Assembly (NCBI GenBank): GCA_017396465.1
Contig: JAFQLU010000077.1
Location: forward strand, 1-51,432
Direction: 5' to 3'
Source: Clostridia bacterium
GTDB taxonomy: Bacteria > Bacillota > Clostridia > UBA1381 > UBA9506
Length of the DNA: 51,432 nucleotides
This document shows, one piece after another, positions 38,136 through 40,231 of the stretch. The notes under the pieces were generated by a model. The model ran no database searches. It saw nothing but the letters and a program-made list of their open reading frames with translations, and was not told the DNA's origin. The translations under genes were made by a program, and so were the position numbers. Positions within the stretch are counted from its first letter, which is position 1. The number at the start of each line of letters is the position of its first letter.

Positions 38136-39335
38136 ATGACAGGTATAATCAAAAGAATATTGTCTGTGTGCATCACGGTGGCAATGCTCTTGTCTATAAC
38201 ACCGCTTGCGATTACAGCAGAAGAAACCTCAGTAGGAACGCTGGTGCCCGAAGCGGCAAAAGTAGTGCGGTTTACTGTTGGTGAAGCGGATGAAAACGGA
38301 GTGTTCGTTGCAAAGCTATCTATGCACAATCTGCAATTCCTTGCAATGGGATTTTCGTTCTCATTTAATAAGGATGTAATTCAGTTGGTAGACGAGACCG
38401 GTGCGGCAACAGATGAATTTAGCAAAGCGGTTCTTGCGTATCCTGTTGTATCAGGCGAGAAAGTACACAGATTTACTGCTATGGAAGAGGCCATTTCCAA
38501 TGCAGAGGGTACAATCCGTATTGCGCAGTACATCATGTTCAAAGATGCGGATACCAATGTAGTCGTTGCAGACGAAGAAGGGTTTGTATCTCATGAGTTT
38601 CGTTTCAAGAAAGTAGCGGACGGGGATTACGGATTTGCTTTGTTGGACAACGAGGATACGAGCCATGGCAAAGACGCTGTACTCAATGATGGTAAAGAAA
38701 CACTGAGCTTCGATTTCGAGTTTGTTTATCCCGAAGCGGAAGCAGATAAAAACACATCTGACCGTTACGAGAGTGAAGCAAAACCGAGCAGACCCTCCGG
38801 TGGAAATGATGCAGCAAATGAAACTGAGCGGCTGAGAAAAGAAAGAAAAGCCGGAACGGTGGTTCTGCAGATTAATAATCATAAAGTTTCTTTAAATGGT
38901 GCATTAAAATGGGTTGACAAAGATAACAAAAATGTGGTACCATATATAGAGAATGACAGAACGATGGTTCCTCTTCGTTTTATCAGTGAAGCATTAGGTG
39001 CAGAAGTGGAATGGGTTGCTGAAACCAGAACCATTCACATTTCTTTAGAGGAAACAAAAATTTCCATGCAGATTGATAACAAGGAATACACCATAAATGG
39101 TGAAACTAAGGAAATGGATGTAGCTCCCGTTATCCGTGAAGACAGAACGTTTGTTCCGCTTCGTTTCGTATCCGAGGCTCTCAATAAATCGGTATACTGG
39201 AACGGCGTAACAAGTATCGTAGTTATTGCTCCTTTAGACAAACCTTGGGACGATAAAGACCCTGTAACACAGCAGTTGATGACAGATACACTGATGATGT
39301 TCAGATGGTTTGATGAAGAAGCATACGCGAACTAA
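38136..39335 (+). CDS. Secreted cohesin-like protein with C-terminal stalk domains
   Basis: The 399-residue protein has a signal peptide (IIKRILSVCITVAMLLSIT, cut near ITAEE). Residues of about 30-210 form a beta-rich domain whose order resembles cohesin folds (FVAKLSMHNLQFLAMGFSFS, VSHEFRFKKVADGDYGFAL). A polar linker follows, then two stalk-type copper-amine-oxidase N-like repeats (MVPLRFISEALGAEVEW and FVPLRFVSEALNKSVYW). It should lie on the cell surface. The ATG at 38136 follows AAGGAGGCG. A secreted dockerin protein is encoded 69 bases downstream. The cohesin call is by pattern only. Confidence 0.7.
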   Translation: MTGIIKRILSVCITVAMLLSITPLAITAEETSVGTLVPEAAKVVRFTVGEADENGVFVAKLSMHNLQFLAMGFSFSFNKDVIQLVDETGAATDEFSKAVLAYPVVSGEKVHRFTAMEEAISNAEGTIRIAQYIMFKDADTNVVVADEEGFVSHEFRFKKVADGDYGFALLDNEDTSHGKDAVLNDGKETLSFDFEFVYPEAEADKNTSDRYESEAKPSRPSGGNDAANETERLRKERKAGTVVLQINNHKVSLNGALKWVDKDNKNVVPYIENDRTMVPLRFISEALGAEVEWVAETRTIHISLEETKISMQIDNKEYTINGETKEMDVAPVIREDRTFVPLRFVSEALNKSVYWNGVTSIVVIAPLDKPWDDKDPVTQQLMTDTLMMFRWFDEEAYAN

Positions 39336-39404
39336 AAAACATAATTTTCGTTTATTAAGCTAATAATTTATAAAAATTTTATCAAATGAAAGGGGAAAAC
39401 GAAA

Positions 39405-40181
39405 ATGAGAAAAATGATTAGCTTTATTTTAGCTGTAGCAGTATCCGCTGCAGTTGCAATGCCTGCTTTCGCAGCAGACACAACGGACAATGGTGACGGC
39501 ACATGGACCACATCCGGTTCTGATGCATCCTATGCTGGCAAAATGATGACAATGGTTGCTTACGAAGGCGGCGAAATCACCGTTGATAGCATTCAGTACA
39601 TCGACCAGACAACAGCTGACGAAAACGGCGCATTTGCATTTGAAAACTACATTCCCAAAAATCTGCCTAAAACAGACTACACAGTTTTAGTTGGTGGCGA
39701 AACATTAGACAAAGCTCTTCCTGCAGGTACCATCAAAGCTCCTGAAATCGTTGATGTTGCTGTTACAGGTAAAGCTTCCGCTATCGGCGACACAGCTATC
39801 AAAGTTGATTTCTGCGCACCCGGTACAACAGAAGCTCTTGTTACAGCTGACGTAGTTGATGGTGCATACACAGCAAATGTTGCTCCCGGAACATACGATG
39901 TAGTTGTGAAAGCTGCAGGTTACCTGAGCCATACAACCACAGGTGTTCCTGTTGACGCTGCTTTAGATTTAGGTTCTGTTACACTGGCAGCAGGTGACGT
40001 TAACGGTAGTGGCGCAGTTACAATCGAAGATATCGGTTTCGTAATCGGTGCATTCAGTGACGCTTCTCTGTATGACATCACAAAAGACTTCAACGCTTCC
40101 GGTACAATTACAATCGAAGACGTTGGTTTCGCAACAGCTAACTTCAAAGCTGAAGCGAAAGTTGTAGCATATGGTAAATAA
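39405..40181 (+). CDS. Secreted dockerin type I protein
   Basis: The 258-residue protein has a signal peptide (SFILAVAVSAAVAMPAFA), a first domain of about 85 residues, and a carboxypeptidase-regulatory-like beta domain (YTANVAPGTYDVVVKAAGY). Near residues 198-250 there is a dockerin with two calcium loops, DVNGSGAVTIED and DFNASGTITIED. Dockerins bind cohesins on scaffold proteins. No catalytic domain is visible, so it is more likely structural than an enzyme. Codon choice is strongly biased (GTT, GCT, ACA), as in the PFOR and lipoprotein genes here, pointing to high expression. A strong terminator follows. Confidence 0.85.
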   Translation: MRKMISFILAVAVSAAVAMPAFAADTTDNGDGTWTTSGSDASYAGKMMTMVAYEGGEITVDSIQYIDQTTADENGAFAFENYIPKNLPKTDYTVLVGGETLDKALPAGTIKAPEIVDVAVTGKASAIGDTAIKVDFCAPGTTEALVTADVVDGAYTANVAPGTYDVVVKAAGYLSHTTTGVPVDAALDLGSVTLAAGDVNGSGAVTIEDIGFVIGAFSDASLYDITKDFNASGTITIEDVGFATANFKAEAKVVAYGK

Positions 40182-40202
40182 TCCATAACAAGCGCATATA
40201 AA

Positions 40203-40231
40203 AGAGCCGATATGTTATCGGCTCTTTTTTT
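40203..40231 (+). terminator. Terminator of the dockerin gene
   Basis: AGAGCCGAT (40203-40211) pairs with ATCGGCTCT (40217-40225) followed by seven T residues. Confidence 0.88.

Follow-up and report, generated by a model that had tools for sequence, protein, structure and literature searches.

Adjacent clostridial genes for a probable stalk-borne cohesin and an enzyme-free dockerin protein whose putatively interacting modules diverge together in relatives

INTRODUCTION

Dockerins bind cohesins in cellulosomes, and most work on the two modules concerns their role in holding enzyme complexes together. What would they do side by side in two secreted proteins that carry no enzyme? The question is raised by two neighboring genes, here called P1 and P2, in a 51,432-nucleotide stretch of DNA (the window) from an uncultured gut-type clostridium whose assembly is 54.6% complete. 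An earlier note, made from the letters of the window alone, read P1 as a signal peptide, a cohesin-like domain, and two stalk repeats and P2 as a signal peptide with two dockerin calcium loops, and it proposed that they could form a non-catalytic surface-attachment pair of unusual layout.

RESULTS

Layout of the locus

The P1 gene (positions 38136 to 39332) begins with an ATG at 38136 and encodes 399 amino acids, while the P2 gene (39405 to 40178) begins with an ATG at 39405 and encodes 258 amino acids. Both genes, and the features of this unit described below, lie on the plus strand, and the gap between them (39336 to 39404) is exactly 69 bases, as the earlier note had it. The sequence aaggagg stands about 6 bases 5' of the P1 start codon. 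The 5' neighbor of P1 is on the opposite strand, and the 3' neighbor of P2 is a glycosyltransferase-like gene. A terminator-like hairpin of 13 pairs followed by a T run (40200 to 40228) lies 3' of P2 and has the longest stem of the 3 hairpins that the scan found, against 2.7 expected by chance; since such hairpins are about as common in shuffled sequence, it is no more than consistent with a two-gene unit. Pfam and NCBIfam searches of both proteins returned no enzyme domain, in agreement with the earlier claim.

P1 carries a divergent type II-like cohesin domain

P1 opens with a signal peptide read directly from the sequence (residues 1 to 28, 38136 to 38219) with cleavage near AITA-EE. The only Pfam match above the cut-off is to the stalk domain Cu_amine_oxidN1 (PF07833; 127.7 bits, E = 2.3e-37), which covers two repeats at residues 266 to 364 (38931 to 39227). 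In alignments, the C-terminal tail (39228 to 39332), with a PW...L.. motif, is kept in relatives.

The domain at residues 40 to 200 (38253 to 38735) does not match the cohesin family PF00963 in the Pfam search, but the cut-off of that family is passed by the homologous gene at locus L030 (G008:C66) and in genomes G005 and G219. A seven-row family profile of the domain searched against the PDB hit the type II cohesin 3l8q first (3.2e-6), and the next six rows were also cohesins. The domain was recovered at 3e-23 by a profile built without the window sequence, and an iterated profile of the family recruits Pfam-positive cohesins. An AlphaFold2 model of moderate confidence (pLDDT 70.1, pTM 0.71) retrieved type II cohesins at Foldseek ranks 1 to 24 and matched the cohesin chains of the 4u3s and 4wi0 complexes. 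With VIA, the model aligned with the SdbA cohesin 2bm3 at Z 11.6 (rmsd 3.4, 143 residues aligned), and type I cohesins ranked below type II. When four P1 domains were compared profile to profile with nearby cohesins, in a set that included L082 on the wrong strand, the match spanned only 36 columns, with a probability of 14%.

Alternatively, the domain might be a beta sandwich that resembles a cohesin but has another role, such as glycan or adhesin binding, with the dockerin serving elsewhere. It does score below the Pfam cut-off, and adhesin domains are found among the lower-ranked VIA matches (Z 7.6 and below). However, type II cohesins head the results of the sequence profile, Foldseek, and VIA alike, and neighboring relatives pass the Pfam cohesin cut-off at the same gene position, which makes this alternative very improbable. 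The N-terminal domain of P1 is thus best described as a divergent type II-like cohesin, an assignment supported by profile, modeled fold, and relatives. The domain order first read by eye holds, and the non-cohesin fold that would have spoken against it was not seen.

P2 ends in an X-module-like domain and a dockerin

P2 also starts with a signal peptide read directly from the sequence (residues 1 to 23, 39405 to 39473). An N-terminal beta domain delimited by alignments, with a YIDQTTAD motif (residues 24 to 115, 39474 to 39749), follows and matches no Pfam or NCBIfam family. Residues 117 to 195 (39753 to 39989) resemble an X module of the CarboxypepD_reg or transthyretin-like type: PF13620 matches at E = 1.9e-5, below its cut-off, and VIA placed model residues 117 to 206 on the X-dockerin 4u3s_B at Z 8.9.

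The dockerin (residues 196 to 250, 39990 to 40154) contains two calcium loops that can be read directly, DVNGSGAVTIED (residues 198 to 209, 39996 to 40031) and DFNASGTITIED (residues 228 to 239, 40086 to 40121), and calcium ligand positions 1, 3, 5, and 12 are kept in both. PF00404 scores it at 15.1 bits, below the cut-off of 22.9 that homologues such as that at L030 pass. P2 alone, searched with phmmer against the PDB, matched the Acetivibrio ScaA X-dockerins 4wi0_B (3.4e-6) and 4u3s_B at about 3e-6, and a five-member P2 profile matched X-dockerins solved with type II cohesins at 7e-16 (4wi0_B, 7.2e-16). The model of P2 placed two helices in the dockerin at a pLDDT of about 42 (below 50 across residues 197 to 239). 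Together, the loops and the sequence matches indicate that P2 ends in an X-module-like domain and a dockerin, in keeping with the two clear calcium loops noted before.

The pair is conserved in other genera and families

Six loci within the family of the window's organism have the pair or something close to it: G007, G008 (twice), G012, G005, and the window itself. Three of these genomes are metagenome assembled, and two of the three come from ruminant colon and cecum. Within the window's genus, two further genomes (85% and 74% complete) lack the pair. A class-wide search found full-length P2 homologues in further families, and in all 16 that were examined, from three families of the class, a cohesin gene directly adjoins P2. 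With the exception of one Pfam cohesin, the neighboring cohesin belongs to the same divergent subfamily. The cohesin gene has a stalk at nine of these loci; at the other seven, all in family f54, it lacks the stalk and is placed after P2 rather than before it. Flanking genes differ between the groups, so the pair stays together in different surroundings. The pair is therefore no one-off and is conserved in other genera and families. Partial relatives of P2 in G005 and G219 adjoin a comparable gene: there, a cohesin-stalk gene whose cohesin exceeds the Pfam cut-off lies next to a small protein with dockerin-like loops or a dockerin. In G188, a 1355-amino-acid protein that ends in an X-dockerin tail has no cohesin neighbor, which indicates that adjacency marks full-length P2 homologues and not every dockerin.

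Individual loci showed other features. A RodA/FtsW-type cell-shape gene stands beside the pair in G007, G145:C23, G198, and G242 (L099, L134, L135, and L136). The version in G005 has three genes (L098:4395-10364), encoding a cohesin-stalk protein, a 202-amino-acid protein that has the P2 N-terminal domain and dockerin-like loops and lacks an X module, and a 1426-amino-acid protein with a cohesin at its start and SLH repeats at its end. In G008, L097:5565-9113 encodes three divergent cohesins followed by a Pfam cohesin with a dockerin fused directly to it, and the next gene starts with a cohesin; G004 (L101 and L102) has comparable cohesin-dockerin fusions, again with a cohesin gene after them. 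It is conceivable that such fusions form chains.

Adjacent genes need not encode partners, and P2 could dock on a multi-cohesin scaffold that is absent from the assembly while P1 binds something else. A further cohesin-bearing gene does lie 3' of P2 in the G008:C66, G008:C7, and G012 contigs, as does a cohesin-SLH gene 3' of the small dockerin-like gene in G005. Against this, no third cohesin gene follows P2 in the window, G007, G145:C23, G198, or G242, where the pair stands alone, and we regard separate partners as quite unlikely.

Joint divergence or switching of the cohesin and dockerin modules in relatives

Where relatives are compared, the cohesin changes in step with the dockerin, either by divergence or by a shift in phylogenetic grouping, and the remaining parts of the two genes do not follow. 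This result rests on three comparisons, all drawn from relatives rather than from the window's own locus. The first concerns a gapA-P1-P2 locus that is orthologous in G008 and G012. DNA identity is 86 to 98% in gapA, the stalk, and the P2 N-terminal domain, and it is also high in the P1 signal peptide, versus mostly 69 to 82% in the cohesin and 65 to 75%, plus indels, in the X-dockerin. Synonymous divergence follows the same division (dS of 0.46 for the stalk and 0.17 for the P2 N-terminal domain versus 1.20 for the cohesin and 1.36 for X). The raised dS points to replacement by a diverged copy rather than to amino acid selection alone. At a second locus shared by G008 and G012, next to glyA and missing its dockerin end, the contrast is weaker (cohesin dS of 0.94 versus 0.59 to 0.68 for flanking genes), and these flanking values suggest that the contrast at the gapA locus arises in part from unusually alike conserved parts.

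In the second comparison, the P2 proteins of G216 and G321 are 95% identical in the N-terminal domain, 84% in X, and 56% in the dockerin, and the adjoining cohesin is 36% identical; here, the divergence spans the whole cohesin protein and not the cohesin alone. The third involves G239, G420, and G281. G239 groups with G420 in the P2 N-terminal domain, in X, and in the remainder of the cohesin gene, whereas it groups with G281 in the dockerin and the cohesin, with bootstrap support of at least 0.99 each way. The signal peptide of the cohesin gene groups with the cohesin.

Residues 9 to 11 of the dockerin loops match at 64% between the two repeats of one protein versus 16% between proteins, and 0 of 20,000 permutations reached the observed value. 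Matching repeats are known from dockerins with two binding orientations, and a match within proteins combined with a mismatch between them is what a symmetric dockerin adapted to a single partner should show. A mirror-tree test on 15 loci found no correlation of cohesin and dockerin distances (Spearman 0.02, partial -0.06), probably because distant pairs are saturated, so that the test neither supports nor excludes pairing.

Other cohesins and dockerins in the same genomes

The window genome contains six further dockerin matches. Four large secreted proteins (937 to 1191 amino acids; G000:C48, C35, C39, and C6, at L106, L107, L104, and L105) end in near-identical X-like and dockerin tails that read NTYDLSAVVSYFGE or nearly so and differ from that of P2. 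Those scanned had no enzyme domain, and no cohesin for them was recognized in the assembly. One adjoins a gene (L104:1128-3239) for a 703-amino-acid protein that combines a beta domain at its N terminus with an internal dockerin, fn3, and three SLH repeats; it is unusual for a dockerin to be SLH anchored. Among the dockerin proteins scanned in this 54.6% complete assembly, there was no dockerin-bearing glycoside hydrolase and no multi-cohesin scaffoldin.

All six matches are candidates for binding P1 as well, and P1 may therefore serve many dockerin proteins as a general surface anchor with a single cohesin, P2 being only one client. P1 is the only recognizable cohesin in the assembly, though other cohesins of this genome may be missing, given its completeness, and four of the six dockerins sit at the C termini of large secreted proteins. 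Yet the recognition segments of the other dockerins (TYDLSAVVSYF and SKDVAIVLVSW) differ from those of P2 (TIEDIGFVIGAF and TIEDVGFATANF), and the pair is also present in G007 with one detectable dockerin. On this evidence, a general anchor is unlikely. In G007, which is 91% complete, P2 is the sole dockerin by PF00404 and P1 is the sole member of its cohesin subfamily, beside one weak cohesin-like match in an SLH protein. As far as this genome can tell, the dockerin's partner is not a scaffold elsewhere, the outcome that the earlier note had named as speaking against the pair.

DISCUSSION

We conclude, with a probability of roughly three in four, that P1 and P2 form a dedicated cohesin-dockerin pair that is non-catalytic, is bound to the cell through the stalk, and keeps its interface private. 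The domain identities, the adjacency in relatives, and the matched divergence and exchange were computed. From homology to solved complexes and the joint exchange, we infer that P2 binds P1. Wall anchoring of P1 is suggested by the PF07833 domain of OlpC of C. thermocellum, for which binding to secondary cell wall polymer has been reported (PMC4582956, PMC3413522). The non-catalytic surface pair first proposed is supported to this extent, with docking and surface attachment as predictions.

Under this dedicated-pair reading, P1 and P2 would be made from one two-gene unit and both exported. The PF07833 stalk would keep P1 on the cell and present the type II-like cohesin, on which the C-terminal calcium-loaded dockerin, backed by the X module, would dock P2. 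Docking would display the conserved P2 N-terminal domain on the producing cell. The cohesin and dockerin variants would be particular to each locus, and they would diverge or be exchanged jointly, with the remainder of both proteins retained. More tentatively, gut clostridia may hold polymorphic, species-private docking pairs in which matched modules are swapped together; in a crowded community, only the producing cell would then recapture the protein that it secretes. We think this possible but short of probable. A conserved enzyme-free two-gene pair whose interface modules move together would offer a natural set of orthogonal pairs for the evolution of binding specificity and a test of whether gut communities keep secreted surface proteins private.

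The closest folds and sequences to the P1 cohesin and the P2 X-dockerin are found in the SdbA-CipA (2b59) and ScaB-ScaA (4u3s, 4wi0) complexes. These type II cohesin/X-dockerin complexes serve the cell attachment of a scaffoldin, and their X-dockerin ends a large multi-cohesin scaffoldin, whereas that of P2 ends a protein of 258 amino acids. OlpC and ScaG (A. cellulolyticus and C. clariflavum) resemble P1 in combining a single cohesin with a PF07833 domain, so that the layout called unusual in the earlier note is half known: a cohesin on a PF07833 carrier has precedents. In OlpC and ScaG, however, a type I cohesin follows PF07833, while in P1 a type II-like cohesin precedes the stalk. Furthermore, OlpC and ScaG receive cellulosomal enzymes, whereas the dockerin protein beside P1 has none. 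The Limousia mucinolysome and the pairwise glycoside hydrolase complexes of C. perfringens (PMC12997984) are likewise non-cellulolytic uses of cohesins and dockerins in gut clostridia, but they join glycoside hydrolases, and P1 and P2 include no enzyme. A type II-like cohesin before a stalk, an enzyme-free dockerin neighbor, and joint module exchange were not found in the open-licence papers searched, in so far as their text was accessible. What is new relative to these systems is a conserved enzyme-free pair together with the matched exchange of its cohesin and dockerin.
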